Origin: Deltaproteobacteria bacterium RIFOXYA12_FULL_61_11
GTDB taxonomy: Bacteria > Bdellovibrionota_F > JAHFAK01 > YA12-FULL-61-11
Assembly: GCA_001799195.1 (NCBI GenBank)
Contig: MGSU01000027.1
Location: 1 to 18,459, forward strand
Direction of reading: 5' to 3'
Length of the DNA stretch: 18,459 nucleotides
Part shown: positions 2,600-17,791 of the stretch, in pieces
Layout: each line of letters opens with the position of its first letter
Position numbering within the stretch: the first letter of the stretch is position 1
Notes under the pieces: model-generated
What the model was told of the DNA's origin: nothing
The model's database searches: none
What the model saw: only the letters and a program-made list of their open reading frames with translations
Made by a program: the position numbers and the translations under genes

Positions 2600-3124
2600 A
2601 TGGAAAAGATCACCGCGGCCGACATCATGATCCCGCTGGACAAATATCCACACCTCCCTTACTGGTTCACCATCCGGCAGGCCATCGTCGAACTCGAGAG
2701 CTCCGAGTTCGACATCAACGGCAAGAAGTCCCTGCCCCGCGTGGTCCTGGTCTTCGACGAGAAGTACCAACTCCTCGGCATGGTCCGGCGACGCGATCTC
2801 CTCCGCGGTATCCAACCCTCCTTCTTCGAACAGGACAAGGTCAAGGACCAGCGCAAACTCTTCACCATCGAGAGCGATGCCCTGCTCGGCGAATTCCACT
2901 GGGAACGGAGCATGAAGGAGATCAAGGAGCGCGCCGAACGCCCGGTCAGCGAGGTAATGCTGCCAATCACCGCGACCGTCGACGTCGGCGACCACATCGT
3001 GAAGATCATTCACCTGATGGTGGTCAAGAATCTCAGTCTCATCCCGGTGATGGACAAGGACAAGGTCGTCGGCACCGTGCGCAGCGTCGACGTGCTTCAC
3101 GAAGTCGGCAAGATCGTCCTCTGA
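2600..3124 (+). CDS. Two-CBS-domain protein
   Basis: This 174-residue soluble protein has two CBS repeats. The first runs from DIMIP near residue 9 to VRRRDLLRG near 71 and carries a short insertion. The second runs from VSEVMLPITATV near 115 to VRSVDVLHEV near the C terminus. CBS pairs usually bind adenine nucleotides and control a partner protein. An ATG in the same frame exists at 2537, but I chose 2600 because GAGGAG at 2589-2594 sits five bases ahead of it and the CBS fold begins right after. The stop is 42 nt before the symporter gene, so the two are probably one transcript. A role as a cytoplasmic regulator of that transporter is inference from position. No catalytic domain is attached. 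Confidence 0.85.
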   Translation: MEKITAADIMIPLDKYPHLPYWFTIRQAIVELESSEFDINGKKSLPRVVLVFDEKYQLLGMVRRRDLLRGIQPSFFEQDKVKDQRKLFTIESDALLGEFHWERSMKEIKERAERPVSEVMLPITATVDVGDHIVKIIHLMVVKNLSLIPVMDKDKVVGTVRSVDVLHEVGKIVL

Positions 3125-3166
3125 CCCTAGCAACCACAACTTGGGGCCCCCACGGAGACGTCCACC

Positions 3167-4681
3167 ATGAGCGAACGCCACAGCAGCGGCGGTCTGCCGA
3201 ACCAACCCCAGACCATCACTCTGAGTAAACCAGTGCACCCCGTCGATTGGCGACGGCTGGGGTTTCTGTTGGCCGGCCCGGCGTTGTTCCTGCTTCTCTA
3301 CTTCTCGCCTTCCTGGCCAGATGCCATCGATCCCGCGGGTAAGGCCTTCCCCCTCTCCCCCGAAGGCAAGGCGGCTATCGGATTGTTCCTCTTGGCCTCC
3401 CTCTGGTGGGTCTTCGAAGTCGTGCCGATCGGAGTGACCAGCGTGCTCATCGCCGTGGTCCAAGCATTGTTCCTCATCCGCGACCCCAAGGTGGCCTTCA
3501 AGGACTTCATGGACCCCTCGGTGTGGTTCATCTTCGGCTCGATCGTCATCGGCATGGTCTTCTCGAAGACCGGGTTGACCAAACGTATGGCCTACAAAAT
3601 GCTCTACGTGGTCGGGGAGCGCACGAGCTTCATCTACCTCGGCGCCTTCCTGATGACGATGGCGATGACCCTGATCATGGCGCACACGGCGGTGGCTGCG
3701 GCCCTCTTCCCCCTGCTCATGGCCATCAACAGTCTCTATAACGAGGACAATCAGCCCACCCGCTTCGGGAAAGGGCTCTTCATCGGCATGGCCTTCGTGG
3801 CGGGCGCTGGCAGCATTATCACCCTCTTGGGTTCGGCCAGGGCCGCCGTGGCCATCGGGTTCTTCAAGGATATCGTTGGGCGCGAGATATCTTTCTTCGA
3901 GTTATCCTATTACATGTTCCCCATGGGGCTGGGCATGACCCTGCTCCTGTGGCTGTTCCTGCTCCTGGTCTTCCCACCGGAGAAAAAGATCATCCCCGGC
4001 CTGCGCGCTCGAGCCGCGGACCTCTACCAACGCCTCGGTCCGATCACCCGGGCCGAGATCTTCACCCTTGTAGTCGTACTCTCCGCCATCTTGGTGCTGT
4101 GTCTGCGCTCGTTCCTGCCCTTCCTGGCCTCTCTGGACAAGAGCGCGATCATTCTGGTAACCCTGGTACTCTTCTTCGTCTTCAAGATCCTCGACATCGA
4201 GGACCTCGAGCGCATCCCCTGGAACATCATCCTGCTCTTCGGCGGTGCCATGAGCATCGGCTTCTGCCTTTGGGAAACCAAGGCGGCCAACTGGATGGCC
4301 GTGATGTGGCTCAACCTGTTCAAAGAAGCCCACTGGTTCGTCTTCATTCTCTCCATCGCCTTCTTCGTGATGGTGGCGACCAACTTCATCATGAACGTTG
4401 CCGCTATCGCCATCTCCATGCCCGTGGCCCTGGTGACGGCGGGCTACCTCGGGGTAGCGCCTGAGGTCATCTTCTACGCCTCGCTGACCGCCGCCGGCAT
4501 GCCTTTCATGCTGCTCGTCGGCGCCGCGCCCAACGCCATCGCCTACGAGAGCAAACAGTTCAGCTCGGGTGAGTTCTTCAAGGTCGGTGTCTTCGCGAGT
4601 CTCATCCTGATGCTCGTACTCGGCCTCTTCATTCTCCTGATCTGGCCTCTCATGGGATTGCCTATTCTGTCGGGAAAATGA
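3167..4681 (+). CDS. SLC13/DASS-family anion:Na+ symporter
   Basis: This is a 504-residue inner-membrane protein with about a dozen hydrophobic segments and an inverted-repeat architecture like the divalent anion:Na+ symporters, which import dicarboxylates, citrate or sulfate with sodium. Family features visible are the N-terminal LFLLASLWWVFEVVPIGVTS region and the late GAAPNAIAYES motif at residues 452-462. The two SNT motifs that coordinate Na+ and substrate carboxylate are altered. The first hairpin reads AHT (about residues 172-174) and the second reads MNV (409-411). Substrate is therefore uncertain and may not be a standard dicarboxylate. The start is supported by GGAG at 3154-3157. 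The gene converges on the DsbA-like gene that ends the - strand operon, with only 51 nt between them. Confidence 0.88.
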   Translation: MSERHSSGGLPNQPQTITLSKPVHPVDWRRLGFLLAGPALFLLLYFSPSWPDAIDPAGKAFPLSPEGKAAIGLFLLASLWWVFEVVPIGVTSVLIAVVQALFLIRDPKVAFKDFMDPSVWFIFGSIVIGMVFSKTGLTKRMAYKMLYVVGERTSFIYLGAFLMTMAMTLIMAHTAVAAALFPLLMAINSLYNEDNQPTRFGKGLFIGMAFVAGAGSIITLLGSARAAVAIGFFKDIVGREISFFELSYYMFPMGLGMTLLLWLFLLLVFPPEKKIIPGLRARAADLYQRLGPITRAEIFTLVVVLSAILVLCLRSFLPFLASLDKSAIILVTLVLFFVFKILDIEDLERIPWNIILLFGGAMSIGFCLWETKAANWMAVMWLNLFKEAHWFVFILSIAFFVMVATNFIMNVAAIAISMPVALVTAGYLGVAPEVIFYASLTAAGMPFMLLVGAAPNAIAYESKQFSSGEFFKVGVFASLILMLVLGLFILLIWPLMGLPILSGK

Positions 4682-4732: not shown

Positions 4733-5623
4733 TCATGGCGCGGCATGCTCCGTTTGACGTTCCAGGAGCTCTTGCAGCACGTCCACCACGGACACCACGG
4801 TCAGGTCGTAGAGGTACTTGCGGCCGTCAAGGAACAGGGTGGGCGTGGCCTCGACCTTGTTGCGCAGCCCTTCCTGTTTCGCCGCGACCAGCGCGTCGCG
4901 GAGCGTTGGGTCGCCGAGGTAGCGCTCGAAGACGGCGCGCTCGAGGCCGAGCCCCGCGGCCCAGTCCGGGAGCAGCTTGGGACAGAAGGCGTCGTAGTCG
5001 CTGTAGAGTTTAGAGAGGAACGGCCAGAAGGCGCCGAGCCTGGCCGCAGCGAGTATGGCCAGTCCCCCCTCGGTTGAGCTCGCGTGGTCCTTGAGCGGGA
5101 AAGGCCGAAAGAAGAGGCGGACCGTGCCCTTCAGGGGCCCCTCGACGAGTTCTCGGTGGAGCTCCGGCACGAACACCTTGCAGAAGGGGCAGCGAGCGCA
5201 GGCATAGACCACCGCGGTAATCGGCGCTCCGGCGATACCCGTGGCCATGCTCTCGTCCAGCGAGAAGGTGGCCGGCTTGCCCAGCGGCAAGACACTTTGG
5301 GCGCGGCGGGTCAGGGAGCGCTCGAGCTCGGAGCGGGACCTGCCCTCCTTGACCTGTCGGCACAGCGCCTCGGCCAGGCGCAGCACCACCGGGTGAGGTG
5401 GCTTGCGGGCCAGACACTTGGCGAACGTTTCATCGCAGCCATCATACGGGTGCAGGCTTTCGAAGACCCCTTGAACCTTCGCCTCGAGGTCGCTCCCGAG
5501 GCTCCTACAGAGAGGAACCGCGGCGGCCGACTGAGCGCGCGTTGCCGGTGCAGCGGCTAGGACAAGAGTGCAGCACAGCACGGCAACGCGAAGGCTGCGA
5601 CTCGGAGATTGTCGAGGGTTCAT
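4733..5623 (-). CDS. DsbA-like thiol oxidoreductase with CcmH-like N-terminal segment
   Basis: This is a 296-residue exported protein. Residues 1-30 form a signal peptide (hydrophobic stretch, then APATRA). Residues ~60-110 hold Cys63, Cys70 and Cys88 in a helical pattern (CDETFAKCL ... ALCRQVKEG) resembling the helical N-terminal part of CcmH-like proteins. From ~115 onward is a thioredoxin/DsbA fold. It has a CPFC redox pair (Cys145, Cys148), an extra Cys142 three residues earlier, a helical insertion, and the cis-proline motif EATPTLFLDG (Pro261). DsbA-type proteins exchange disulfides in the periplasm. It is the last gene of the operon and overlaps the MauE-like gene by 4 nt (ATGA). GGGAG lies eight bases ahead of its ATG. 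Its natural partner is unknown; the adjacent membrane protein with a CxC pair is the obvious candidate. Confidence 0.87.
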   Translation of the reverse strand: MNPRQSPSRSLRVAVLCCTLVLAAAPATRAQSAAAVPLCRSLGSDLEAKVQGVFESLHPYDGCDETFAKCLARKPPHPVVLRLAEALCRQVKEGRSRSELERSLTRRAQSVLPLGKPATFSLDESMATGIAGAPITAVVYACARCPFCKVFVPELHRELVEGPLKGTVRLFFRPFPLKDHASSTEGGLAILAAARLGAFWPFLSKLYSDYDAFCPKLLPDWAAGLGLERAVFERYLGDPTLRDALVAAKQEGLRNKVEATPTLFLDGRKYLYDLTVVSVVDVLQELLERQTEHAAP

Positions 5624-6132
5624 GTCCTATGCTCCCTATGGTGAGTAACGGCTTCGCCAGGTTTTCGCCGAGCGAAGAGGCGATCGAGTCCAAGCGGGTC
5701 GCGGTCGAAGACCAGCACATACATCGAGAGCGAGAGCCAACCCAGATCGCGCAGGACGGTAAACCACGAGATAGGGTCCGAGGCGGCTCCCTGTGAGGCG
5801 AAGCAACCACAAGACATGTCGAGCCCCCGGAGGACAGCGAGGGTGACCGCCACGGTGAACATCGCCATCATCGTTGCGACGAGCAGGGCTCCGACGCGGG
5901 TGCGTAGGCCGAGGAGCAGCATCAGTCCGGCGGCGAGTTCGATCCACGGCAGGACGATGGCCAGCAGGTTGATCAAGCCGAGCGGCAGGAGTTGATAGGT
6001 CGCGATGTCCAGGGCGAAGGCGGCGGGGTCGAGGAGCTTGTGATAGCAGGCCAGCAAGAAGACGAGGCCCAGGTAGATCCTGGCCGGGAGTGCGAGATAC
6101 GGGTGCCCTCCCCAGGCGTACAAGCGCTTCAT
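5620..6132 (-). CDS. MauE/DoxX-like redox-associated membrane protein
   Basis: This 170-residue protein has four predicted transmembrane helices and the layout of the DoxX/MauE family. The family hallmarks are ARIYLGLVFLLACYHKLLDP near the N terminus, an ALDIATYQLLP loop, and MSCGCFASQG after the third helix. Cys108 and Cys110 form the CxC characteristic of MauE-like members, which are thought to pass reducing equivalents or disulfides to periplasmic proteins during cofactor or disulfide maturation. It overlaps the rhodanese-like gene upstream and the DsbA-like gene downstream by 4 nt each, so the three are almost certainly translationally coupled. AGGAG stands seven bases before the ATG. A membrane redox carrier for the neighbouring periplasmic thiol proteins is inferred. 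Confidence 0.85.
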   Translation of the reverse strand: MKRLYAWGGHPYLALPARIYLGLVFLLACYHKLLDPAAFALDIATYQLLPLGLINLLAIVLPWIELAAGLMLLLGLRTRVGALLVATMMAMFTVAVTLAVLRGLDMSCGCFASQGAASDPISWFTVLRDLGWLSLSMYVLVFDRDPLGLDRLFARRKPGEAVTHHREHRT

Positions 6133-6659
6133 GGCCGGACTCCTGCCGGGAGATCCCCGGTCAGGGCCGGAGCCCCGCCGACGATGAAGCCGACGTTGCG
6201 GATGCCCTTGCCGGCCAGTTCCTTGGCCAGGTGCTCCCCACAGTCGGGATTTTCTCCGTCGCCGTATACGACGACCCGCTTGGCCCCGGAGGAAGCGAGC
6301 TTGCGCAGCGTCGCGCTGGCGACCGCTTCGAGGTAATCATAGGGTACGTTCCGGGCACCGGGTACATGCCAGCTCTCGTAGGCCCCCCGTGAGCGGGCGT
6401 CGAGCACGAGCGTCTCGGTCGGAGCGCCGGTCAGGTTCAGCCCGGTGAGCGTCTCGACCTCGCCGGACGTCTCTGGGCACGGGACGAGGATCTGGTACTC
6501 GGTCTCCTGAACGAGGGGAAGTCCTTCTGCTCGGAGGGCATTGACGAGCAACGCGAGGACCGCACACAGCGCGGTCACGACGAGGGCTTCCAAGACAGGC
6601 GCGTGCCAGGTGAGCCGCCTTGCCGGGGAGCGCCGGAAGAAGATGCTCATTTCACGCAT
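6129..6659 (-). CDS. Membrane-anchored rhodanese-like domain protein lacking the usual catalytic Cys
   Basis: This is a 176-residue protein with an N-terminal transmembrane anchor (about residues 22-42) and a periplasmic rhodanese-like domain (~80-170). Domain landmarks are LVLDARSRGAYESWHVPGARNVPYD split across 84-108, and NVGFIVGGAPAL near 155-166. In active rhodaneses the loop after the VVVY strand carries a sulfur-accepting Cys. Here that position is Gly133 (VVVYGDGENPDC), and the nearest Cys is Cys140, seven residues later. Cys61 follows the anchor. ATG 6659 is preferred because GGAG lies six bases ahead. A second ATG at 6650 would give an exact ATGA overlap with the upstream gene but has poorer spacing. 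The frame continues far upstream as a shadow of the TPR gene. It is coupled by ATGA to the MauE-like gene. Sulfurtransfer is doubtful; binding or an alternative thiol role is possible. Confidence 0.8.
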   Translation of the reverse strand: MREMSIFFRRSPARRLTWHAPVLEALVVTALCAVLALLVNALRAEGLPLVQETEYQILVPCPETSGEVETLTGLNLTGAPTETLVLDARSRGAYESWHVPGARNVPYDYLEAVASATLRKLASSGAKRVVVYGDGENPDCGEHLAKELAGKGIRNVGFIVGGAPALTGDLPAGVRP

Positions 6660-8266
6660 GACGAGCTCCGTTGCGCGGCCTCGTCCTGCCGCAACAAGTC
6701 CTGGATCCGGTCCTGCACCGCGGCAGAGCCCAGGCCATACTCGAGGGCGACGTGCTGCTCCGGCGAGACCGGCCGGGGTAACCAGGGATCGAGGGAAAAG
6801 CTCCACTGCAGCTTCACCAGGAGACGATGATCCTGGTAGCGATAGGGGGCGGTCGTGCTGAAGCGCTGCGAGAACTCGTAACCCGTCACCAGCCGCAGGT
6901 TGTCGGCCAGTTGCGGGCTGAGCGCGCTCAGCCCGAGCTTCAGCAGTAGGTCTCCGCGTGCGACCGTGGGTTCGGAAACGTCGAAATAGCCGTCGGAGCG
7001 GGGATACCGGTCCAGACCCAGGACGGTGAGTGCGCGGGCGGACCAGCCCTTGGGCAGCCCGACCTCGGCGCTCAGCAAGGCTGATCCACCCCACAGATCG
7101 TAGGGGGTGATTTCGGCCGCATGCCACCGTCCGGTGAGTGCGCCCAGGGTGCGGACCTTCGGGCTCAGTCCGAGTTGCCCTCCGAGGCCGCCGTCGACCT
7201 CGGTTCTGGTCCTGCCCAGTTCGCGGAAGCCGCGATGCCCGGCTCCGCCGAACATCGTGACCCCGGAGAGGATAGCGGCCTCGAATTCGCCGCGGTGGGC
7301 CTGGAAATACCACAGGGGCCCGGAATCATACTGGTCGCCGCCCGCGAGGAGCAGACCTTCGTAACGGTAGGCCAGGAGAGCCTGGGGTGACCAGCCCAGC
7401 ACGACCCCGGGCCGTCCGCCGACGAGGAGATAGGACAGATCGCGACCGCTTGTCGAAGTGTAACCGAGCGAACGGATATCGAGTTCTACGGCCGGCCTGA
7501 ACCTGTGGCCTGTGGGCGCGACCTGGCGGAACCACAAACCGGTCTGGACTAGGCCGCTCCCGGGTTCTGCCCCCACGACCGCCCGGTCCACCGGCGACCC
7601 GGCGAACACGTTGGAGGTCGAGCCCAGCACCAGTTCGAGGCGTCCGGAGAGCGGGGCAAGGTAGCCGGGGTCGCGGGCTAGGAGGTGGCTCACGGCCGCC
7701 CGGTCTTCCGGGAAAACGCTCTCTACTCCCCTGGCGGCCTCGAGGTGGTTCAGAACCCGCTTTTCGTCGCGGGCGTGGTGTTCGGTGAAGGCCAGGAGCA
7801 GGCTCCGGCGCGCCGCGAGTGGCGGGGCATCCCAGCAACCCGCGGGGGCCAACAGGTCCCGGACCTCCTCGAGAGACCCCTGTTTGAGGAAGAGCCACGC
7901 TCCCCAGGACAGCACCTCGCAGTCATCGGGATGACGCTCGTGGTAGTCGAGGACCGTGCGCAGCGCCCATAGGTCATTGCCATCCCTCAGATAGGCGCTG
8001 ACGAGCAGCAGAGTCAAGGCCTTGGCTTCAGGGGATCCGGCCAGACCTGCCTTCAGCAGCGTCATGGCCTCGGCGGTCCGGCCCGTTTCCAATAGTTGGG
8101 CGGCCTTTTCGAGAACAGGGTTCGGGGACGGAACCTCCGGTATAACCTGTTGAGACGAGGACACTTCTGCCGTGGAGTGGGCTCCGGAAAGGCAGCCGAG
8201 GATGAGGAGGAAGAAAAACAGGCCACACTCGGCGCGCTGTGAAAAGGCGGTGGTACGAGGATGCAT
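6647..8266 (-). CDS. Exported TPR plus outer-membrane beta-barrel-like protein
   Basis: This is a 539-residue protein. A signal peptide with a lipobox-like LILGC (Cys25) is followed by TPR-type helical repeats at about residues 48-190 (KAAQLLETGRTAEAMTLLKAGL, then further helix pairs). The remaining part, about 205-505, alternates short amphipathic strands ending in Gly, Tyr, Trp or Leu, as in outer-membrane barrels. This order recalls Slam/DUF560-type surface assembly proteins, but I see no signature specific enough to name it. Roughly 35 polar residues follow the last strand, which is unusual for a barrel. GAGGGGG lies just upstream of the ATG, nine bases after the previous stop. It overlaps the rhodanese-like gene by 13 nt. 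It would put one component of this operon in the outer membrane. Function unknown. Confidence 0.75.
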   Translation of the reverse strand: MHPRTTAFSQRAECGLFFFLLILGCLSGAHSTAEVSSSQQVIPEVPSPNPVLEKAAQLLETGRTAEAMTLLKAGLAGSPEAKALTLLLVSAYLRDGNDLWALRTVLDYHERHPDDCEVLSWGAWLFLKQGSLEEVRDLLAPAGCWDAPPLAARRSLLLAFTEHHARDEKRVLNHLEAARGVESVFPEDRAAVSHLLARDPGYLAPLSGRLELVLGSTSNVFAGSPVDRAVVGAEPGSGLVQTGLWFRQVAPTGHRFRPAVELDIRSLGYTSTSGRDLSYLLVGGRPGVVLGWSPQALLAYRYEGLLLAGGDQYDSGPLWYFQAHRGEFEAAILSGVTMFGGAGHRGFRELGRTRTEVDGGLGGQLGLSPKVRTLGALTGRWHAAEITPYDLWGGSALLSAEVGLPKGWSARALTVLGLDRYPRSDGYFDVSEPTVARGDLLLKLGLSALSPQLADNLRLVTGYEFSQRFSTTAPYRYQDHRLLVKLQWSFSLDPWLPRPVSPEQHVALEYGLGSAAVQDRIQDLLRQDEAAQRSSSCVK

Positions 8267-8275
8267 CTCGCCCCC

Positions 8276-8689
8276 TCAGCGTTGCAGGGCCGCCGTGACC
8301 TGTTCCTTGGTGAGCTGCCCTTGCAGTAACTGGAGGACCGTGCCCGCACTATCGAGCAGATAGATGCCGGGTAGAGCCTGCAGAGGGCGCTGCTGCAAGA
8401 GCGGTCGTATGGCAACGGTATCGACATCGATGTCCAGACGTTCGATGGGGATGCTGCTCGGGGTGCCAAGTGCTTGCTCGAGCGCCGCTGTGCTTGCGGC
8501 GATGGCCTTGGCCGTGCACTCACAGGCGTGTTTTCGGCCGATGAAGACGATGCGCACGACCTTGCTCGCACCGGAGGTCGGGACGGGGGTCTGGAGCTTG
8601 GGAGCTTGGTCCCCTTGCTCTGGTCGAGAGCAAGCCAGGGTACCGGCGAACAGAGTCAGGATGAGCAAGAGGCGGAGGGGAAAAAGCAT
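8276..8689 (-). CDS. Thioredoxin-fold lipoprotein with CxC motif
   Basis: This is a 137-residue protein. The signal peptide ends in GTLAC, giving lipidated Cys20. The rest matches a compact thioredoxin-like fold: strand VVRIVFIG (44-51), then Cys56-Glu-Cys58 at the start of the first helix where thioredoxins carry CxxC, strand IERLDIDVD, cis-proline motif ALPGIYLLD (Pro107), and VLQLLQGQLTKEQ at the end. The start at 8689 was chosen because GAGGAG lies six bases ahead; the frame extends upstream to 8830 but without a signal peptide. Located 50 nt after the SUMF1-like gene and 9 nt before the TPR gene. It would act at the periplasmic face, and CcdA from the same operon is a plausible reductant. 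The CxC pair could also bind As(III) or another soft metal. Confidence 0.75.
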   Translation of the reverse strand: MLFPLRLLLILTLFAGTLACSRPEQGDQAPKLQTPVPTSGASKVVRIVFIGRKHACECTAKAIAASTAALEQALGTPSSIPIERLDIDVDTVAIRPLLQQRPLQALPGIYLLDSAGTVLQLLQGQLTKEQVTAALQR

Positions 8690-8739
8690 GGCGAACTCCT
8701 CAAGTGGTGGTGTTGGGGTGGATTTGTACACTCTGCATC

Positions 8740-10404
8740 TCAGCGGTCCTTGCAGCAACGGAAGCCGGCATAGAGGTCGGCCCAGCCCGCATTGAAGGTG
8801 CAGGCGAAGCGGACCGAGGGTGAACCGCAATTGAAGGCGCCGCCGCGCACCTGGTAGCCGCGGGCATCCGCGCTGGTCGGTACGGCGACCACCTCCCAGA
8901 CGTTGCCGTTCACGTCGAAGAGGTCGTGGGCGTTGGTACAGGAGGGCATGGCGCCGGTCGGTAGGACATGGAAGCAGACGTGGCAGCTCGAGAGGCCGTA
9001 CTCCGCGGTCAGGGTGCAGGTCTCAGGGGTGTAGGGAGAGGAGGTCAGAGCGTCGTCGTAACCGCAGTTCTCGCCGGTAGGACAGTTTGCGAGCCCGAGC
9101 GCGGCGCAACACTGGCTGCAAGAGGTATCGACGCTGTTGCAGACGGAGGGGTCCCAGGTGTTGCCGAAGGTGAAGGTCGTGGCCTCCGGACCCTGACAGG
9201 CCTCGAGCCACTCGGATCCGCGGCACAGGCGTTTTCCGGCCGCGACACAGGCCTGCTCGAAGGTCTTGTGGGCGGCGGGGGTCAGATAATCAACATACCA
9301 CGGCAGCACTCCAGGTCGGCTCCTCGCGCCGCCGGAGGCTGTGCCTTGGTTGGTGGGCGTGGCGTCAGAACGCGAGGCCTCGTACCGGTCGAAGCAGACC
9401 CGGCCCACGGAACGCATGTCGTCCGGACAGGGCTCGAGAGCACTATCGTCCGCCGTGGCGTCGGCGGAGGTGTCCGGAGCGCACTCCGTTGGGGGGGCTG
9501 GCCCAGGGTCTCCGGATGGATCCTCCGGGTCGTCCACGCATTCTTCGGCGGAGGAATCGTTGGAGGAGGGATCGGGTTCGGGGTCCGCGGCGCCGTCGTC
9601 GGCGACCTCCTCCAAGGAATTGCCGTGTTCGGGAGTCAGGCAGCAGCGGAACCCCCGTGCCGCGGGGTTCCAGTCGCCCGGAATATACTCGCACCTATGC
9701 AGGGCCGCCGAGTCCGAGCAGTTATAGGCTCCGCCGCGCACCGTGCGCTCGTCGCCGCCGGCAACATGTTCCCAGAGGTTGCCGCTGAGGTCGTAGACCT
9801 CCCAGCCATTGCTGCACCCGGGAAAGGAACCGGTCGGGGCGAGGTGGACGGAGTCTCGACCATAGGCGTCAATGCCGTTGCAGGCCTTGGGGGCGTAGCG
9901 ATCTCCATAGGGATAGATGGTAGCGTCCGGTCCGGAGCAGGCCAGGCGCCATTCACGCGGCGTGCACAGGCGTTTCCCGGCCGCGGCGCAGGCCTCTGTG
10001 GCCGTGGCATTATCCGCGACCTCCCACGGTAGTACCCCGGCGACGCTATGGGCAAGGGTTTCCGAGGTTCCTGACGACGTTGCCGAGGCGTCGGGCCGCG
10101 AGGCCTCATAGCGGTCCATGCAGAAGATCCCGGCCACGACCGCCATGCCGACCGGGCACGTTAGCTTCCCTTTGGGATCGGGCACGCAGCGGTGGTCTGC
10201 GCAGCGGAAACCGTCGCCGCAGCTCTCCTCTTCGCTGCACTCGTCGACGCAACGTCCGTCCTCGGCGCAGACTTGGGAGCCGGAACAGTCCCGGTCGACC
10301 GTGCAGCGACTCTGCACACAGCCGTACCCGAGGCTCAGCAACAGGCCAAGGAAAAGAGCATGAGACATCGGTATCAACGAGTTGTAATAAATGTTGACGT
10401 ACAT
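8740..10404 (-). CDS. Lipoprotein with two SUMF1/FGE-like domains
   Basis: This is a 554-residue exported protein. The signal segment ends at LGYGC (Cys29), and a small Cys-rich module with eight cysteines follows (residues 34-73). SUMF1-like domain 1 (~84-255) and domain 2 (~326-554) both show MDRYEAS or FDRYEAS, AAGKRLC, EW, a DLSGNLWE or DVNGNVWE motif, VRGGA[YF]NC and a terminal GFRCC. An acidic Asp/Glu/Pro/Ser linker (~260-325) separates them. True formylglycine-generating enzymes bind copper with a C-x4-C pair. Here each domain keeps the first Cys (229; 526), but the next is nine residues on (238; 535), so sulfatase activation is unlikely. The ATG at 10404 has GAGG eight bases ahead; the later ATG at 10368 has none. 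Role in the arsenic/redox operon unknown; substrate binding, or a C-type-lectin-like scaffold, is possible. Confidence 0.82.
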   Translation of the reverse strand: MYVNIYYNSLIPMSHALFLGLLLSLGYGCVQSRCTVDRDCSGSQVCAEDGRCVDECSEEESCGDGFRCADHRCVPDPKGKLTCPVGMAVVAGIFCMDRYEASRPDASATSSGTSETLAHSVAGVLPWEVADNATATEACAAAGKRLCTPREWRLACSGPDATIYPYGDRYAPKACNGIDAYGRDSVHLAPTGSFPGCSNGWEVYDLSGNLWEHVAGGDERTVRGGAYNCSDSAALHRCEYIPGDWNPAARGFRCCLTPEHGNSLEEVADDGAADPEPDPSSNDSSAEECVDDPEDPSGDPGPAPPTECAPDTSADATADDSALEPCPDDMRSVGRVCFDRYEASRSDATPTNQGTASGGARSRPGVLPWYVDYLTPAAHKTFEQACVAAGKRLCRGSEWLEACQGPEATTFTFGNTWDPSVCNSVDTSCSQCCAALGLANCPTGENCGYDDALTSSPYTPETCTLTAEYGLSSCHVCFHVLPTGAMPSCTNAHDLFDVNGNVWEVVAVPTSADARGYQVRGGAFNCGSPSVRFACTFNAGWADLYAGFRCCKDR

Positions 10405-10423
10405 CTCTCCAACCTCGTCTCGC

Positions 10424-11131
10424 TCAACCGAACCCGCGGCTACCGAAGTACACCCCGACCAAGACGATGACAGCGCCGGCGCCCCGGCGCAAGTATTCGA
10501 GCACGACCGTAGCCCTGCGGTTCTCGAGGAGCTGCCGCGCTGCACCCATCGAGGTCCCGGCGAGCAGGACCAACACGCTATGCCCGAGGGCATAGGTGAG
10601 GAGCAGGGTGCCGCCCCAGGTGATCGACGAGCCCGAACCGGCCAGGTAGGTCAGGAGCACGATCAGGATCGGCGCGGCGCAGGGGGCGGACACGACGCCG
10701 AAGAGAAGTCCCAGGAGCAGGGCGCCGAGCAGCCCTCGCGTCTTGGGCTGGAGCCTGTAGCCGAGCGCGGGGATGGGGACGGTGAGCAGCCCCATCAGGT
10801 GCAAACCCATGACCACACACACTGCCGCAACCACGAAGTTCCAGATCTGCGAGACGTCGCCGTAGAGCTTGCCGGCCAGCGCCGCGATCATGCCGAGCAT
10901 GGTGAAGGTCACCGCGAGCCCGAAGATGAAGACGAGCGAGAACAGGAAGGCTCGCAGCACCCCGGGCTTGTCCTCGCGATTGCCGGCGACAAAGCTCATC
11001 ATCAGCGGGATCATGGCCAAGACGCAGGGGTTCGAGGCCGTGAGGGCGCCGCCCGCGAACACCGCGACCAGCGCCAGCCACGGATTGGTGTGAATGTATG
11101 CGCCCGCGTTGGTCACGAGGGAGTCGAGCAT
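10424..11131 (-). CDS. ccdA: CcdA/DsbD-type transmembrane thiol electron carrier
   Basis: This 235-residue protein has six predicted transmembrane helices and the two hallmark cysteines of the CcdA family. They lie in pseudo-symmetric motifs: SNPCVLAMIP (Cys36) in the first helix and SAPCAAPIL (Cys151) in the fourth. CcdA carries electrons from cytoplasmic thioredoxin across the inner membrane to periplasmic thioredoxin-like proteins, classically for cytochrome c maturation. No cytochrome genes are near. The likely clients are the periplasmic thiol proteins in this operon. GGAGGA lies six bases ahead of the ATG. It sits 43 nt after the small CPKC thioredoxin gene, which could feed it electrons from the cytoplasm (inference). 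Confidence 0.92.
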   Translation of the reverse strand: MLDSLVTNAGAYIHTNPWLALVAVFAGGALTASNPCVLAMIPLMMSFVAGNREDKPGVLRAFLFSLVFIFGLAVTFTMLGMIAALAGKLYGDVSQIWNFVVAAVCVVMGLHLMGLLTVPIPALGYRLQPKTRGLLGALLLGLLFGVVSAPCAAPILIVLLTYLAGSGSSITWGGTLLLTYALGHSVLVLLAGTSMGAARQLLENRRATVVLEYLRRGAGAVIVLVGVYFGSRGFG

Positions 11132-11174
11132 GGTGTCCTCCTCCGCACGCTACCTTTTCGTGGAGAATCCATTT

Positions 11175-11420
11175 TCATGTCCCGGTAGCCGTCGTGAGCC
11201 ATCCGGCGATTTCGGCGGCCGAGGGCAAGCGTCCGCTCGACTTGACCGTGCCGTCGAGGACCAGGGCCGGGGTCAGCATCACCCCGTACTTCATAATCTC
11301 GTCGAGCTTCTCGACTTTCTCGAGCTGGGCAACCACCCCGGAGGCCGCAATGGCCTGCTCGGCTGCTTCGTAGAGCTTCTTGCACTTGGGGCACCCGGTG
11401 CCCAATACTTTGATATTCAT
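11175..11420 (-). CDS. Small glutaredoxin-like thioredoxin (TM0996/MTH895 type)
   Basis: This 81-residue cytoplasmic protein begins MNIKVLGTGCPKCKKL, with redox pair Cys10-Pro-Lys-Cys13. It ends with the cis-proline motif LTPALVLDG (Pro51) and a short helix, as in the minimal thioredoxins called TM0996/MTH895 or redox-active disulfide protein 2. Members are commonly found next to COG0701 permeases and ArsR regulators, as here. The frame extends to 11456, but the ATG at 11420 is the clear start, with AGGAGG six bases ahead and the fold starting at residue 2. The gap to the permease stop is 10 nt. It may reduce the permease or CcdA, or bind As(III) through the CPKC pair. Confidence 0.9.
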   Translation of the reverse strand: MNIKVLGTGCPKCKKLYEAAEQAIAASGVVAQLEKVEKLDEIMKYGVMLTPALVLDGTVKSSGRLPSAAEIAGWLTTATGT

Positions 11421-11430
11421 GTCTAACCTC

Positions 11431-12606
11431 CTAAAAAAAAGTGCCATATGTTGCACCCGCGAAGGTCGATAGGATGATTACCAGGGAGACGAAAACCACC
11501 GTCTTCTTGGTGCCCATCACGCTGCGGATGACGAGCATGTTGGGTAGCGACAACGCCGGGCCGGCGAGCAGCAGCGCCAGCGCCGGGCCCTTGCCCATAC
11601 CCGAACCGATGAGCCCTTCCAGGATCGGTACCTCGGTGAGCGTGGCGAAGTACATGAACGCGCCGACGAACGACGCGAAGAAGTTGGCGAAGAGCGAGTT
11701 GCCGCCCACGGCCGCCGCTATCCAGGAGTTCGGGATGATGCCCCGTTCAGACCCCCCGGGGCCACCGAGCAGGAATCCCGCCACCAGGACGCCGCCGAGC
11801 AGTAACGGAAGGATTTGTTTGGCGAAGGTCCAGCTCGAGTCGACCCACGTCGAGAGTTCATCCTTATTGAACCAAGCGACGAGGCTGGTGACGAGGCCCA
11901 CGCTGAGCACGCCCGTCACGATCCATTTCGCCGAATGGATGGCAGCCCAGACGCCACCTTCCCCATCCGCGGGCTTGCCCCAGTTGGCAAAGACCAGAAT
12001 GCCCACCATGGCCGCGAAGTAGAGGCCGTCCTGCCAGAGGGATCGCCCTTTCTCCTCATCCGGCATCACGACAGGGCCTTCAGCCTGCCGAGCAGCTTCC
12101 TCCTTGCGGAAGATGAGGTGCATCAACAGGCCGAGCACCACGGCGAACGAGATGGCGCCCACTGCCCGGGCGAGGCCCAACTCGGGCCCGAGGATGCGGG
12201 CTGTGAGTATGATGGCCAGGATGTTGATGGCCGGGCCCGAATAGAGGAACGCGGTGGCTGGTCCGAGCCCGGCACCTCGCTTGTGGATGCTCGCGAAGAG
12301 GGGCAGGACCGTGCAGGAGCAGACCGCCAAGATGGTCCCGGACACCGCGGCCACTCCATAGGCGAGCGCCTTGTTGGCCTTCGGCCCGAGGTAGCGCATC
12401 ACCGCGGCCTGGCTCACGAACACGCTGATCGCCCCGGCAATGAAAAACGCGGGGACGAGGCACAGCAGGACATGCTCCTGCGCGTACCACTTCACCAGCG
12501 AGAGGCTTTCCTGGATGGCGTTCCAGAACCGCTCGCTGCCCGTCGGCAAGAACCAACAGGCCGCAAAGACTGTCAGGATCAGCGCGAGCTTGGTGCGTTC
12601 TCTCAT
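11431..12606 (-). CDS. COG0701 (YraQ/ArsP-like) permease
   Basis: This is a 391-residue inner-membrane protein with 8-10 hydrophobic segments in two related halves, matching the predicted permease family COG0701/DUF318. Family signatures are VCSCTVLPLFASI at about residues 95-107, followed by LGPATAFLYSGPAINI (114-129), and the mirrored TLTEVPILEGL and GPALALLLAGPALSLPNML in the second half. Some members (ArsP) export trivalent methyl- and aryl-arsenicals. That activity would fit directly beside arsM, which makes them, but ArsP specificity cannot be proven from motifs here. The Cys96-Ser-Cys98 pair could bind a thiophilic metalloid. The ATG overlaps the arsM stop as ATGA, which fixes the start at 12606. 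The open frame continues upstream to 13257 only as a shadow of arsM. Confidence 0.88.
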   Translation of the reverse strand: MRERTKLALILTVFAACWFLPTGSERFWNAIQESLSLVKWYAQEHVLLCLVPAFFIAGAISVFVSQAAVMRYLGPKANKALAYGVAAVSGTILAVCSCTVLPLFASIHKRGAGLGPATAFLYSGPAINILAIILTARILGPELGLARAVGAISFAVVLGLLMHLIFRKEEAARQAEGPVVMPDEEKGRSLWQDGLYFAAMVGILVFANWGKPADGEGGVWAAIHSAKWIVTGVLSVGLVTSLVAWFNKDELSTWVDSSWTFAKQILPLLLGGVLVAGFLLGGPGGSERGIIPNSWIAAAVGGNSLFANFFASFVGAFMYFATLTEVPILEGLIGSGMGKGPALALLLAGPALSLPNMLVIRSVMGTKKTVVFVSLVIILSTFAGATYGTFF

Positions 12607-13445
12607 CGTTTGCGTCCGACGAAACGGAGACTGGCGACCTTGCCGGCCAGAGCAGTACAAACATCCTCGAGCTGCAAGGCGGTCAGGCCCGAGGAGCCGG
12701 AACAGCAGGCCGCACCGGCTGAGGGATCGAGCAGACCGCGGAGCTGCAGAGCATCGTAGACCAGTCGATTGGGCACTTCGAGGTCCACCAGTCCTGCTTC
12801 TCGGAGACCTGCAAGGTACTCGGCCTCGGAAATGGCTCCGGCGATGCAAGCCGAGTACAGGAGTTCGGTCTTCACCGTCTCGGGCAAGGACTCGGCAACG
12901 ATGTCCGAGATGGAGAAGCGGCCGCCGGGTTTGAGCACGCGGTGCAGTTCGGCGAAGACGCGCGGCTTCTCCGGCGAGAGGTTGATCACGCAGTTCGAGA
13001 GCACGAGGTCGATGCTCGAGGGCTCGATGGGCAGGTCCTCGATGATGCCCCGGCGCACCTCGACGTTGGTCAGCCCAGCCGCGGCCGCGTTCGCCCGCGC
13101 GCGCTCGAGCATGGCCTCCGTCATGTCCACGCCGATCACCTTGCCCTCGGGTCCGACCAACTTGGCCGCAAGCAGGAGGTCGATGCCGGCTCCTGAGCCG
13201 AGGTCGAGCACGGTGTCGCCCCGGCGGATCCCGGAAAGAGCCACGGGGTTGCCGCAACCGAACGAGTTCTGGACGGCATCCGGGGGCAGACCGGCCAGAG
13301 TCTCGTAACCATAACCGGCGAGAGCGGTCAGGACTCCAGGGGCGATCGGTCCCGAACAGCAGCAGCCACCGGTGGGCTGGGGCTGCTCGACGGCCCGGGT
13401 ATACGATGCGGAAACGTTCTTGCGGATGGTGTCGGGATGGTTCAT
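12603..13445 (-). CDS. arsM: Arsenite methyltransferase ArsM
   Basis: This is a 280-residue cytoplasmic SAM-dependent enzyme that methylates As(III) using thiols and S-adenosylmethionine. The SAM site is seen as [15 protein letters not shown] (79-93) with IGVDMT downstream. The three arsenic-binding cysteines of the family are in their usual contexts: Cys64 (SFGCGNP), Cys152 (SNCVINLSP) and Cys200 (YSACIAGA). An N-terminal CCC (28-30) and a C-terminal CC (247-248) add extra thiols. The start overlaps the acr3 stop by ATGA, and the stop overlaps the permease start in the same way, so all three are translationally coupled. Together with Acr3 and the permease it suggests a choice between exporting arsenite and methylating it for separate efflux. 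Confidence 0.96.
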
Positions 13446-14536
13446 GCCTTGTTCTCCTTGTGTGGATAGTACTTACGACCGAGCCAGAGCGCGACGTTGA
13501 CCAGGCCGATCATGACTGGCACCTCGACCAGCGGCCCGATGACCGCGGCAAAGGCCGCTCCGTGGGTGATGGTAAAGGTCGCCACCGCCACCGCGATGGC
13601 GAGTTCGAAGTTGTTCGAGGCCGCGGTGAAGGACAGAGTCGTGGCTTGCCCATAGGTCGCGCCGACCTTCTTGGAAAGGAAGAAGGAGATGAAGAACATC
13701 ACCACGAAGTAGATGAGCAACGGGATGGCGATGCGCACCACGTCGAGCGGCAACTCCACGATCGTCTCGCCCTTGAGCGAGAACATCACGATAATGGTGA
13801 AGAGCAGGGCGAGGAGCGTGAGCGGGCTGATCTTCGGGATGAAGGTGGCATGATACCAGACCTTGCCCTTCACCCGGATGAGGAAAAAGCGCGTGAGGAT
13901 ACCGGCGAGGAACGGGATGCCGAGATAGATGAAGACGCTCTCCGCGAGATCACCGATGGTGATGTTGACGGTCACGCCCTCGAGCCCGAACCAGGTCGGT
14001 ATAACTGTAATGAAAACATATGCATAGACCGAGAAGAAAAGTACCTGGAAAACGGAGTTGAAGGCGACGAGCCCGGCACAGTACTCGGTGTCGCCCTTGG
14101 CGAGGTCGTTCCAGACGATGACCATGGCGATGCAGCGGGCCAGACCGATCAGGATCAGGCCGATCATGTATTCGGGCTTGTCGGAGAGGAAGAGCACCGC
14201 GAGGGCGAACATCAGGATCGGACCGATGACCCAGTTCTGCACCAGCGACAGACCAAGGACCTTGGTGTTGCGGAAGACGGGGCCCATCTCCTCGTAGCGG
14301 ACCTTGGCCAGTGGCGGGTACATCATCAGGATGAGCCCGAGGGCGATGGGGAGGTTGGTCGTCCCAACGGTCCACCGGTTGATGAAGGGGACGACCGCTG
14401 GAATGAAGTAGCCTGCCCCGACGCCGATGGCCATGGCCGAGAAGATCCACACGGTGAGGTAACGGTCGAGGAAGGAGAGGTGTTTGATCGCACTGGTTGC
14501 CGCCGGGTCGGTTCTGGGTGAGGTTCGCTGGGCCAT
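13442..14536 (-). CDS. acr3: Acr3-family arsenite efflux permease
   Basis: This is a 364-residue inner-membrane protein of about ten helices that extrudes arsenite using the proton gradient. Acr3 hallmarks are [15 protein letters not shown] near the N terminus, [19 protein letters not shown] with the essential-type Cys135, and [15 protein letters not shown] near 302-316 with Glu311. The ATG at 14536 is joined to the arsR stop as TGATG and has AAGGAG seven bases ahead. An upstream in-frame ATG at 14563 would overlap arsR by 28 nt and is less likely. The frame continues upstream to 15013 only as a shadow of arsR. It is coupled to arsM by a 4-nt overlap. Confidence 0.96.
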
Positions 14537-14955
14537 CAGGCTGCTCCTTGGTCGGTTGGACATTCGCACTCCTGAGAAGAGGACGGACCACAACAGGCCT
14601 GGGAAGGTGTCCCCCCGATACTGTCCTTGCGTTCCAGCCAGGTCCGGAGTTCCTGCAGCACGTTCGCCGAAGAAGGATGCTTCGCCAGTTCGCCGCTCAG
14701 CGCATCGAGCACTGCGCGTTCGAGCGCATTCTCGGCAGGCCGGAGCGAGTAGTAGGTCCAGACCGCCGCTTTGCGATCGACGACCAACCCGGCATGGCGC
14801 AAGGTCGCCAGGTGGCGCGAGGCCTTGGACTGGGTAATGCCGAGCGCGGCCATGATATCGCAGACGCACAGTTCTTGGTGATTGAAGAGGAGCCACAGCA
14901 TCTGCAGCCTCGCTTCGTCGGCGAGAACCTTGAGGAATTTGGCGACGTCTCGCAC
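14536..14955 (-). CDS. arsR: ArsR-type As(III)-responsive repressor
   Basis: This is a 139-residue winged-helix regulator. The first ~85 residues are the ArsR fold. They include the metalloid site ELCVCDI (Cys30, Cys32) on the helix before the recognition region, then [18 protein letters not shown] and a beta-wing with VWTYYSL. Such proteins dissociate from DNA when As(III) binds. A C-terminal tail holds four more cysteines, CC at 121-122 and CEC at 130-132, which could form a second or alternative site. The start is a GTG with GGAGG seven bases upstream; no in-frame ATG lies between the promoter and that point. It is the first gene of the - strand operon and is joined to acr3 by TGATG. It most likely represses the whole operon. 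Confidence 0.94.
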
Positions 14956-14984: not shown

Positions 14985-15013
14985 CGTTTATCCGGTTGTA
15001 TGCATTTTGTCAA
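14985..15013 (-). promoter_or_regulatory. Candidate promoter of the ars operon
   Basis: A perfect TTGACA (15013-15008) is followed after 17 nt by TAAACG (14990-14985), a poor -10 match. An AT-rich TATATC lies a little downstream but with too long a spacer. The site is about 30 nt before the GTG of arsR. The -35 box overlaps the stop codon of the ribbon-helix-helix gene. Confidence 0.45.
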
Positions 15014-15017
15014 CTGG
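14991..15017 (-). promoter_or_regulatory. Candidate arsR operator (interrupted dyad)
   Basis: On the - strand CCAGTTG (15017-15011) and CAACCGG (14998-14992) form an inverted repeat with one mismatch and a 12-nt spacer centred on ATGCAT. It covers the proposed -35 box and the promoter spacer, where a repressor would block RNA polymerase. ArsR dimers bind imperfect dyads at such positions. The exact sequence is not one I can match to a known ArsR site. Confidence 0.45.
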
Positions 15018-15198
15018 TCGGATGTCTACCGCCTCCCTTTGTGCCGGCGAGCTGCTGGACCGATGCCGGCCATTCGGATCTGCAGCGTTCCGCGATGAGT
15101 TGCGCGATCCACTTGCTGGTCGAGAGCTGCTTCGCTTTCGCGACGTGCTTCATCGCGGTCTCGAGACGATCATCAAGATAAATGGTCACCTGACCCAT
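15010..15198 (-). CDS. Orphan ribbon-helix-helix (CopG-like) DNA-binding protein
   Basis: This is a 62-residue protein beginning [19 protein letters not shown]. This is the beta-strand and first helix of a ribbon-helix-helix fold, followed by the turn LSTSKW and second helix [13 protein letters not shown]. Proteins of this form are antitoxins or small autoregulators. The frame can start at 15252, but ATG 15198 has AAGGGG about five bases ahead and begins the fold directly. Relatives usually extend further after the EWP...LAG segment. Here the tail ends in a short Gly/Arg run, so the C terminus may be shortened. No toxin gene is adjacent: downstream is arsR on the same strand, 54 nt away. Its stop overlaps the proposed ars -35 box. 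Confidence 0.7.
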
Positions 15199-15267
15199 AG
15201 GTACCCCTTTATGGAAAACCACATAGAGGTGCAAGTATATGTGCTCATTCATACTAGGTCTTGGTCA

Positions 15268-15479: not shown

Positions 15480-17780
15480 TCACTCATAGCATCCGGGTGT
15501 CGGAGGATCCGCTCGCACAACACCGTCCTTGTCTAGACTGTATCCTGTAATCTTCATTCCCGCGCCTTTTAGATTTCCACCTAGAGTGGGATGCATATCT
15601 GTGTACGGCAATACGACATCAGGTGGGGCGCCCAAGAACGTACTGTGACTATCAGGAGAACCCTGTAGACCTATCCACTCGGTCCAGCCATACGAGCCAT
15701 CGGCATCTTTGAATACCTTTGTCGTGATGTTTCCATCTGTATAGAATACGTTATAGTCGATAGAATTATTGGCGGCTAAATAGTCCAAAGTGCTTAAGCT
15801 TAACCCATTGTAGACATAAAATGGAGACACAGAACGATCCTGAATGATAAGATTGTTCTTGATGACAGTGTTCGCCATATTCGCTTCAATGCGGAATGCA
15901 TAACCTCCCGAACCGCTGTTTATTATTGTATTGAATACGAATATCATATCGTGTGAATCGGAATCAAAATTGACATTGTACTGATTGTCATAAACGAGAT
16001 TATTGTAATAAATGGCGCCAGTATTGACCGCGTATAACCCAATAAAGTTGCCGTAGCACACATTATTGTATACTACTGGAGTGTATGGGCTATGAATTCC
16101 TTCACTATTTACCTTGATTCCGGCACCGACAGGGTTATTGAATGAAGTACTGTTTCTGACTATGCCTCCATAGCGTATATAGATGCCGTGGTCCGCCCAT
16201 TGATTCGTGCCATTATTATACGCAATACAATTATCAACAACGCAATCGTGAGGTCCTTCTGCGCCGGTGGCGCTTGATATCATGATCCCGGATTTTGTGT
16301 TGTTATACGCAGTGCAGGAATCAACCACGATGTTGTAAATTTCCGCACCACTTTCACTCCAGGCCAAGAATCCGCCATTCTTTCCATTTCGGAATATGCA
16401 ATCATAGAAATACAAGTCGTGACTTTGTGCCGATACGGCTCCGTAGTTGATATAATTAGATCCATTGAAATCGATATTTTGAAATCTCAAATGGTGGTAG
16501 GTTCCATTCCAAAGGGCCAAAGAAGTGCTTGAGGTCGTGCCGTCGACTATGGGTCTGTTGCCGCTACCATAAGCACCAAAGGTTATATATCTTCCGGCAG
16601 AGCCAGAACTGTGCGGTTCTAGGGTTCCGGTCCACGTCTCGCCGCGCTTCAATAAAATCCTGTCTCCTGGAGAGAAAGTTGTGTTGTTTACCTTGGCGAG
16701 TGTCCTCCATGCCAGGGCTTCGGTTGTGCCGTTACTAGTATCGCTCCCACCAGTGGCGTTAACGTAGTATGTTGCAGCACAGATCCCACAGTCTGCTTCA
16801 CAGCTCAAGCAGTCTTCGGTGCCGTTGCATGTTCCGTCCGGGCACAAAGATGGGCATGTTGCCGAGCATGTGCCCCCACAACCATCTGAGACACCTCCGC
16901 ACTTGCCGACACAATTAGGTGCGCATCCAATACATGTTTCACCGACACAGGTGTCCGTCGAAGAGCAATCTTCGGGGCCATTGCAGCCGCACAATCCACC
17001 AATGCAATCATTGTTGTTGGATTGTGTTGTACAGTCGGTACAGCTTGTGCCGCAGTGCGTCGGAATGGTGCATGTCGTGCACACTTGTTCGCGACACCAC
17101 TGGCCGGAAGGACACGGCCCGTTGCACGTTCCTCCGCAGCCATCGGATGCACCTTCACATTTATCTGCGCAATCGGGCGAGCATCCTGTACATGTTCCGC
17201 CTAGACATGTGTCTGTTTGTGAACAATCTTCTGGGCCGTCGCAGCCACATGTGCTGTTGATGCAATCTTTGTTGTTGCCTTGTGTTGAGCAGCTTTGACA
17301 GGTAGGACCACAGTGTTCGGGTGTGTTACAAGTCGCGCATGACTGTTCAGTAGTGCACCACTGATCGGATGAGCAGGGCCCACAATCCGTAACGGTGCGG
17401 GCAAGACCGCAATTGTCCATTCCCGTAGATAGGCCACAGGTCGTACCCAAACGTGCACAAAACTCAGTGTTAGTTTCCGGGGTACAACCGCAGACGTTAG
17501 GTGTGCCACCCCCACCACACGTTTGAGGAAGAAAGCACGAACCGCAGTTGACAGACGTTCTTGTCTGGCCGCAGTTATCTAAGTTCATGACTTCATCACA
17601 ATTCTTATTGAGAGAAGCACAGAACTCTTCGTCCGTGTAAGGCGTACAAGTCAGGCCGGAGTTACTACTCTCTCCGATGGTACCCGTATTTCCAGTACAC
17701 GCGGTGAAAACCAAAAGGGCAGGCTCTAATAACAAATAATACAAGGTTCTTGTTGATCTGGAATGTACATGTTGTTTCAT
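15480..17780 (-). CDS. Cys-repeat, parallel beta-helix surface lipoprotein
   Basis: This is a 766-residue exported protein. The signal peptide ends at VFTAC (Cys28), indicating a lipoprotein. Residues 45-147 are two repeats of a C-x-PE/Y..EFCA..C...DNCG..RT...CG.C type. Residues 148-315 are two longer Cys-rich repeats, each with GP[ET]..., NN.DCI...CGC.GPEDCS and SDGCGGTC. From ~337 onward a right-handed parallel beta-helix runs to ~735, with recurrent Asn- and Tyr-rich rungs (YNNGTN, SFNNP, VYNNVCYGN, IYYNNLVYDN) as in pectate-lyase or NosD-like folds. This suggests binding or cleavage of a surface polysaccharide, but no catalytic residues can be assigned. GAGGA lies about seven bases before the ATG at 17780. 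The frame extends to 17876 without a signal peptide. Codons are markedly AT-richer than in all neighbours, suggesting recent acquisition. Confidence 0.85.
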   Translation of the reverse strand: MKQHVHSRSTRTLYYLLLEPALLVFTACTGNTGTIGESSNSGLTCTPYTDEEFCASLNKNCDEVMNLDNCGQTRTSVNCGSCFLPQTCGGGGTPNVCGCTPETNTEFCARLGTTCGLSTGMDNCGLARTVTDCGPCSSDQWCTTEQSCATCNTPEHCGPTCQSCSTQGNNKDCINSTCGCDGPEDCSQTDTCLGGTCTGCSPDCADKCEGASDGCGGTCNGPCPSGQWCREQVCTTCTIPTHCGTSCTDCTTQSNNNDCIGGLCGCNGPEDCSSTDTCVGETCIGCAPNCVGKCGGVSDGCGGTCSATCPSLCPDGTCNGTEDCLSCEADCGICAATYYVNATGGSDTSNGTTEALAWRTLAKVNNTTFSPGDRILLKRGETWTGTLEPHSSGSAGRYITFGAYGSGNRPIVDGTTSSTSLALWNGTYHHLRFQNIDFNGSNYINYGAVSAQSHDLYFYDCIFRNGKNGGFLAWSESGAEIYNIVVDSCTAYNNTKSGIMISSATGAEGPHDCVVDNCIAYNNGTNQWADHGIYIRYGGIVRNSTSFNNPVGAGIKVNSEGIHSPYTPVVYNNVCYGNFIGLYAVNTGAIYYNNLVYDNQYNVNFDSDSHDMIFVFNTIINSGSGGYAFRIEANMANTVIKNNLIIQDRSVSPFYVYNGLSLSTLDYLAANNSIDYNVFYTDGNITTKVFKDADGSYGWTEWIGLQGSPDSHSTFLGAPPDVVLPYTDMHPTLGGNLKGAGMKITGYSLDKDGVVRADPPTPGCYE
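16836..17339 (-). repeat. Tandem duplication of a Cys-rich module inside the beta-helix lipoprotein
   Basis: Two consecutive units encode residues 148-233 and 234-315 of the lipoprotein. They share the ordered pattern C..C..P.HCG..C..C.TQ.NN.DCI...CGC.GPEDCS.TDTC.G.TC.GC.P.C..KC.G.SDGCGGTC. The second unit is slightly shorter. The shared Cys spacing shows an internal duplication. Confidence 0.8.
17340..17648 (-). repeat. Shorter tandem Cys repeat at the N terminus of the same lipoprotein
   Basis: Residues 45-98 and 99-147 both follow CTP....EFCA.L...C.....DNCG..RT...CG.C. It is a second repeat family, distinct from the longer units that follow. The first copy has an extra Gly-rich CGGGG segment. 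Confidence 0.7.
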
Positions 17781-17791
17781 CGTGGTTTCCT

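Follow-up and report, generated by a model that had tools for sequence, protein, structure and literature searches.

An uninterrupted run of twelve genes, headed by an arsR repressor gene, occupies positions 14955 to 4733, on the minus strand, of an 18,459-nucleotide stretch of contig MGSU01000027.1 from the uncultured Deltaproteobacteria bacterium RIFOXYA12_FULL_61_11, hereafter the window. As judged from gene order and protein families, the apparent operon is a merger of two gene sets that are mostly separate in its relatives: set A, comprising arsR, acr3, arsM, an ArsP-type permease, an ArsE-type thioredoxin, ccdA and a lipoprotein with a CxC motif, and set B, comprising a double SUMF1-like, cysteine-rich lipoprotein, a TPR/beta-barrel protein, a rhodanese-like protein, a MauE-like protein and a DsbA-like protein. 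We suggest, giving the idea about even chances, that this ArsR-headed operon would supply both reducing and oxidising power to the thiols of the cell envelope during the export of trivalent arsenicals. The twelve genes, in the order in which they are read, are the following.

14536 to 14955, minus strand: arsR, ArsR/SmtB repressor, set A (PF01022, 9e-16; NF033788, 91 bits)
13442 to 14536, minus strand: acr3, arsenite efflux permease, set A (TIGR00832, 451 bits, cut-off 283)
12603 to 13445, minus strand: arsM, arsenite methyltransferase, set A (NF008823, 272 bits, cut-off 263)
11431 to 12606, minus strand: ArsP-type permease of the COG0701/PF03773 family, set A (PF03773, 245 bits)
11175 to 11420, minus strand: CPKC thioredoxin of the MTH895/ArsE family, set A (TIGR00412, 107 bits, cut-off 62)
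10424 to 11131, minus strand: ccdA, DsbD_TM electron carrier, set A (PF02683, 7e-24)
8740 to 10404, minus strand: double SUMF1/FGE-like cysteine-rich lipoprotein, set B (PF03781, FGE-sulfatase, 1e-15, 58.5 bits, cut-off 23.3)
8276 to 8689, minus strand: CxC (ACECT) thioredoxin-fold lipoprotein, a set A gene inside set B (conservation and fold of a homologue)
6647 to 8266, minus strand: TPR protein with a predicted outer-membrane beta-barrel, set B (PF14559, 3e-5, just below cut-off; TPR profile matches)
6129 to 6659, minus strand: membrane-anchored rhodanese-like protein, set B (PF00581, 7e-9)
5620 to 6132, minus strand: MauE-like membrane redox protein with a CGCF motif, set B (PF07291, 8e-27, 94.5 bits, cut-off 27)
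4733 to 5623, minus strand: DsbA-like protein, set B (PF13462, 2e-15; Thioredoxin_4/DSBA; DsbA/BdbD structures)

This order, with gaps of at most 50 nucleotides and six overlapping junctions, had been proposed in a first-pass annotation of the same DNA, and it was borne out by scans of open reading frames (ORFs) and families and by a recount of the junctions. Six of the eleven junctions are overlaps (arsR/acr3 by 1 nucleotide; acr3/arsM, arsM/permease, rhodanese/MauE and MauE/DsbA by 4 each; TPR/rhodanese by 13), and the other five are gaps of 10 (permease/thioredoxin), 43 (thioredoxin/ccdA), 19 (ccdA/SUMF1), 50 (SUMF1/CxC) and 9 nucleotides (CxC/TPR). A GGAG-type ribosome site is present at most of the twelve starts, and the GC content at third codon positions (GC3) is uniform, from 0.72 to 0.90 across all genes. 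Between positions 4600 and 15500 no sigma-70-like promoter was found, and terminator-like sites were rarer than in shuffled sequence. From this anatomy we infer that the twelve genes form one apparent operon led by ArsR and read as a single transcript. The gene identities were likewise confirmed, by matches to HTH_5, TIGR00832, an ArsM-type methyltransferase, PF03773, TIGR00412, DsbD_TM, FGE-sulfatase, TPR, Rhodanese, MauE and Thioredoxin_4/DSBA.

Set A has the features of an arsenic operon. The ArsR protein, with its HTH_5 domain, carries the arsenic-type motif ELCVCD and a cysteine-rich C-terminus, and is 72% identical to the product of arsR in L172; the family scans returned no match to an arsC arsenate reductase among the twelve ORFs. 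Across homologues C49, C96 and C98 of the ArsP-type permease and C36 of CcdA are invariant, and C151 of CcdA is kept in 95%. The CPKC thioredoxin has no signal peptide and would be the cytosolic electron donor. When public genomes were scanned with the CcdA protein, 20 loci came up, distributed over Myxococcota, Deltaproteobacteria and one Riflebacteria metagenome-assembled genome (MAG); they carry arsR, often acr3 or arsM, the PF03773 permease, the CPKC thioredoxin and ccdA, with cxc usually next. Thus, the conserved core is permease-thioredoxin-ccdA-CxC lipoprotein, with cxc after ccdA, and its closest relative is L014 (Myxococcales), whose permease is 89% and CcdA 84% identical to ours. In the operon of L172 the order is arsR-acr3-arsM-permease-thioredoxin-ArsF-ArsG, and other operons with a like head also have ArsF-ArsG in the place of ccdA-cxc. 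Downstream of set A in L014 (11146 to 18208, same strand) lie genes for TolC-like, HlyD-like, RND permease, FmdE/zinc-finger and TauE-like proteins, which form another envelope extension behind the same ars head. The selenoprotein tso/sao systems were also considered and rejected, all NCBIfam matches being weak and below cut-off.

The CxC lipoprotein matches no Pfam or NCBIfam family, but the thioredoxin fold proposed for it in the first-pass annotation is upheld by the fold of a homologue. L019 (10001 to 11056) has a natural fusion of ccdA and cxc, a single ORF of 351 residues. AlphaFold confidently predicts a thioredoxin fold for its CxC domain; in a Foldseek search of the fusion the best match was the nuclear magnetic resonance structure of CcdA, 5vkv, followed by thioredoxins. 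Both the fusion and the fold support a transfer of electrons from CcdA to CxC, the direction of which we infer from homology. The CxC motif is conserved in the family and a lipobox in most of its members, which places the protein outside the cytosol. Of 31 genomes outside the window, 28 have the gene in linkage with arsR, acr3, arsM, the permease gene or that of the ArsE-type thioredoxin; the other three have it on short stretches or show only ccdA. In L094 and L188 cxc is linked to the permease and thioredoxin genes with no adjacent ccdA, indicating that the CxC lipoprotein can accompany the permease alone. The possibility that it is a homologue of ArsF was discarded (hhalign probability 8%; no match to NF040494); ccdA-cxc and ArsF-ArsG are thus read as functional replacements and not as one family.

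The five genes of set B recur as a block in dozens of loci of Myxococcota-type genomes, usually unlinked to set A. The SUMF1 lipoprotein contains about 40 cysteines, nearly all of them invariant among six sequences compared, and each of its halves matches single-domain relatives; by eye, against the FGE motif, only one of the two catalytic copper-binding cysteines seems present. In the TPR protein, C116, C144 and the C-terminal C537 are conserved, and residues 205 to 505 show a strong period-2 hydrophobicity (z 7.1 versus shuffles), of which the TPR part has no sign; the C-terminal 300 residues or so, for which no Pfam match was obtained, are consistent with a predicted outer-membrane barrel. 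A single-sequence AlphaFold model of this protein, with a mean predicted local distance difference test score of 39, was uninformative for the barrel and was not used. In the alignment the tail of the protein (6647 to 6700, minus strand) ends with a conserved SSC followed by one or two residues, its cysteine being invariant. The MauE-like protein has an invariant pair, C108 and C110, in the CGCF motif. The DsbA-like protein has a CxxCxxC active site (CARCPFC), a cis-proline loop and an N-terminal cysteine pair; CPxC and T260-P261 are invariant in the alignment, in which the CxxCxxC and the N-terminal pair are conserved too. By analogy with the MauD/MauE pair of methylamine dehydrogenase, we take set B to be a putative set of genes for the oxidative folding of the SUMF1 lipoprotein and for its export.

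The rhodanese-like protein, in which C61 is invariant, has homologues with a conserved Gly-Asp-Gly, and no conserved cysteine, at the position of the catalytic-cysteine loop, making sulfur transfer unlikely. The first-pass annotation had linked arsenic detoxification to an envelope thiol-redox chain and had envisaged thiolation of arsenicals: the linkage stands, as one apparent operon, but a rhodanese acting as sulfur donor for thioarsenicals was rejected, since the catalytic cysteine is absent in the whole family. A literature search on MauE and rhodanese returned nothing concerning the set B module, and a search of plasmids with MauE gave no match. Frequent neighbours of set B in L098, L099, L102, L104, L150 and L167 are a NUBPL/Nitro_FeMo-Co protein, a CoA-disulfide-reductase-like flavoprotein and an AIR-synthase (ThiL-like) protein. 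L053, L054 and L060 carry a further rhodanese-MauE pair some 4 kb away from the first, next to a gene for a flavoprotein resembling the CoA-disulfide reductase of L102; an in-frame TGA suspected in the second MauE copy of L048 proved to be merely the stop codon of that gene.

If the two sets had come together by accident, the read-through from arsR into set B would have no meaning for arsenic: a horizontally moved ars cassette would have settled ahead of a resident envelope module, which would simply hitch-hike. We regard this main alternative as possible, though on balance doubtful. It draws on the fact that B is unlinked to A in most genomes, and on the identities to L014: those of the permease and CcdA, given above, stand beside about 46–67% between the B proteins and the B locus of the same genome, consistent with separate histories. 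Nevertheless, the window shows the two sets interleaved: cxc, a set A gene, is located inside set B, between the SUMF1 and TPR genes, and not ahead of it. The same position speaks against the suggestion, made in the first-pass annotation, that two operons happen to abut. CxC and MauE, used as queries, each matched this genome once; its only copies thus appear to be those in the merged operon.

Moreover, the join is not confined to the window, whose phylum is represented by only two genomes in the collection. We examined 54 B loci, 29 of which have at least 4 kb upstream, and besides the window two of the 54, both in unrelated genomes, are immediately preceded, on the same strand, by ars-type genes for a relay or a permease. 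In G247 the order is thioredoxin-permease-SUMF1-TPR-rhodanese-MauE-DsbA, and an arsR-ArsF-ArsG operon runs towards it from about 2.8 kb away; the ORF that precedes the G247 operon is ArsR-like but lacks a Pfam match and seems to be a remnant, hence we do not claim that this operon is led by arsR. In G180 arsR-ArsF-ArsG is followed by ferredoxin-like and other ORFs and then by the whole of set B. In the B tree each of these three loci (window, G247, G180) sits in a different branch, and in the permease tree the window and G247 are likewise placed apart, suggesting that A and B were joined independently at least twice besides the window, which counts against hitch-hiking. Such joins may be undercounted, as some B contigs stop just upstream of B. 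Conserved linkage in other genomes, on which the first-pass annotation had made its proposal depend, was therefore found both for the core and, independently in two genomes, for the distal part.

The two sets also co-occur beyond chance in two phyla, which again argues against hitch-hiking. Among 195 genomes of the first phylum the CxC protein is present in 8, the TPR protein in 15 and both in 6 (hypergeometric P = 2e-6, uncorrected for common descent); among 377 genomes of the second the figures are 14, 27 and 7 (P = 1e-5, likewise uncorrected). MauE homologues of 53–66% identity occur in the same genomes as set A, at other loci.

The mechanism that we consider most economical is the protection and maturation of envelope thiols during the export of trivalent arsenicals. 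Acr3 would export arsenite and ArsM would methylate it, while the ArsP-type permease, as predicted from its family, probably exports the trivalent methylarsenical. Once in the periplasm, these trivalent arsenicals would attack vicinal thiols. Electrons may pass from the cytosolic CPKC thioredoxin to CcdA and then to the periplasmic CxC lipoprotein; DsbA, with MauE as its membrane partner, would form the disulfides of the cysteine-rich SUMF1 lipoprotein, and the TPR/beta-barrel protein may handle this lipoprotein at the outer membrane. A thiol-reducing relay and an oxidative-folding set under one arsenic repressor could thus keep a cysteine-rich envelope protein correctly folded. The tight anatomy of the operon, its uniform GC3, internal promoter- and terminator-like sites no more frequent than by chance, the conserved A core, the fusion, the conserved B block with its invariant cysteines in the SUMF1, DsbA and MauE proteins, the independent joins and the co-occurrence all support this proposal. 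Several observations weigh against it: the P values ignore shared ancestry, all 13 surveyed genomes with both the CxC and TPR proteins have the two loci on different contigs, the electron path is deduced from homology, and set B is common in genomes without set A, which implies that B does something in its own right, not necessarily connected with arsenic.

Two other readings give the arsenicals a direct contact with the envelope proteins. In one, the SUMF1 and CxC lipoproteins would bind exported trivalent arsenicals in the periplasm or at the surface, with the redox proteins loading and unloading them. The dense invariant cysteines of the SUMF1 protein and the tight tie between the CxC lipoprotein and ars permeases would agree with such a capture, but so many conserved cysteines, with DsbA and MauE nearby, point to structural disulfides more than to free thiols, and B is present in many genomes without set A; we find this unlikely. 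Slightly less probable still is an envelope arsenic-thiol cycle, in which arsenicals exported by Acr3 and the permease would be passed to the CxC lipoprotein, kept reduced by thioredoxin and CcdA, and from there, by way of the TPR-barrel protein, to the cysteine-rich lipoprotein, matured by DsbA/MauE, at the cell surface. If true, it would couple arsenic detoxification physically to a dedicated outer-membrane thiol machine.

A third possibility is a system like ArsEFG (TIGR00412, NF040494, NF040495; Chen, Zhang and Rosen 2019, cited in PMC9144182), in which the thioredoxin, a lipoprotein and the CcdA-like protein would reduce and export aromatic arsenicals. MTH895-type thioredoxins, including ours, are the ArsE family in NCBIfam (TIGR00412); both systems are controlled by ArsR, and in both the neighbours of this thioredoxin are a CcdA-like membrane protein and a thioredoxin-fold protein of periplasmic type; moreover, as seen in the syntenic L172, ArsF-ArsG and ccdA-cxc swap for each other in otherwise similar operons. 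However, the periplasmic protein of the window is not ArsF, and its membrane protein is a DsbD_TM CcdA, related to ArsG only by distant profile similarity and with no match to the ArsG model (NF040495), which leaves this reading improbable. Finally, a chimera of two contigs in the source assembly, a 4.64 Mb MAG of 342 contigs and 87% completeness (a fragmentation that also counts against our own proposal), is very improbable, because the interleaved sets would need more than one false join, GC3 is uniform and similar joins exist in two other assemblies.

The preferred reading, protection and maturation of envelope thiols, builds partly on known systems. Operons of ars genes with CcdA and thioredoxins were already described in 2010, and share with the window CcdA, an MTH895-type thioredoxin and a second thioredoxin-like protein. 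Given this precedent and the ArsE-family thioredoxin, the thiol chain as far as CxC varies a type of system already known. It differs in that arsC, carried by seven of the eight published operons with CcdA/Trx/RADP2 and thus not universal there, is absent here, in that the part of the second thioredoxin falls to a CxC lipoprotein whose family is unlisted, and in the addition of five envelope genes. As to the ArsP methylarsenite permease, ours belongs to the same PF03773 family and lies near arsM, but it scores under the cut-offs that NCBIfam sets for the named subfamilies (SO_0444, SaoE), its substrate being predicted from the family.

MauD and MauE are the disulfide-forming pair of methylamine dehydrogenase. 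Set B resembles them in having a thioredoxin-fold oxidase and MauE near the gene of a very cysteine-rich envelope protein, but the oxidase is DsbA/BdbD-like, not MauD-like, and the substrate would be the SUMF1-like lipoprotein. Slam/PgaA/BcsC-type proteins combine TPR and barrel; the TPR protein shares with them the N-terminal TPR, a predicted C-terminal barrel and a lipoprotein gene beside it, but has no sequence match to them and ends in a cysteine tail.

These results provide a first functional lead for two things: a conserved, unnamed five-gene envelope module of Myxococcota-type bacteria, and a family of CxC lipoproteins that keeps company with arsenic permeases. They also make testable an old puzzle, the CcdA electron carrier in ars operons although the known arsenic reductase is cytosolic: the CcdA-CxC fusion and the recurrent joins point to a periplasmic side for it. 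The functional link between A and B becomes testable too, thanks to their recurrent independent joining.

A possible extra first gene, which might be the true start of the operon, lies 54 nucleotides upstream of arsR on the same strand:

15010 to 15252, minus strand: ribbon-helix-helix-like ORF (weak PF19807/PF19891 matches, below cut-off)

Further upstream (15480 to 17876, minus strand) there is a cysteine-rich ORF of low GC content (0.48), with a composition unlike the rest of the window and no Pfam match, the C-terminal part of which resembles a parallel beta-helix protein. On the other side, genes for a PPDK_N/PEP-utilising enzyme, a CBS-domain protein and a Na/sulfate-type symporter (51 to 4681, plus strand) converge on the operon, the symporter gene ending 51 nucleotides from the DsbA stop.

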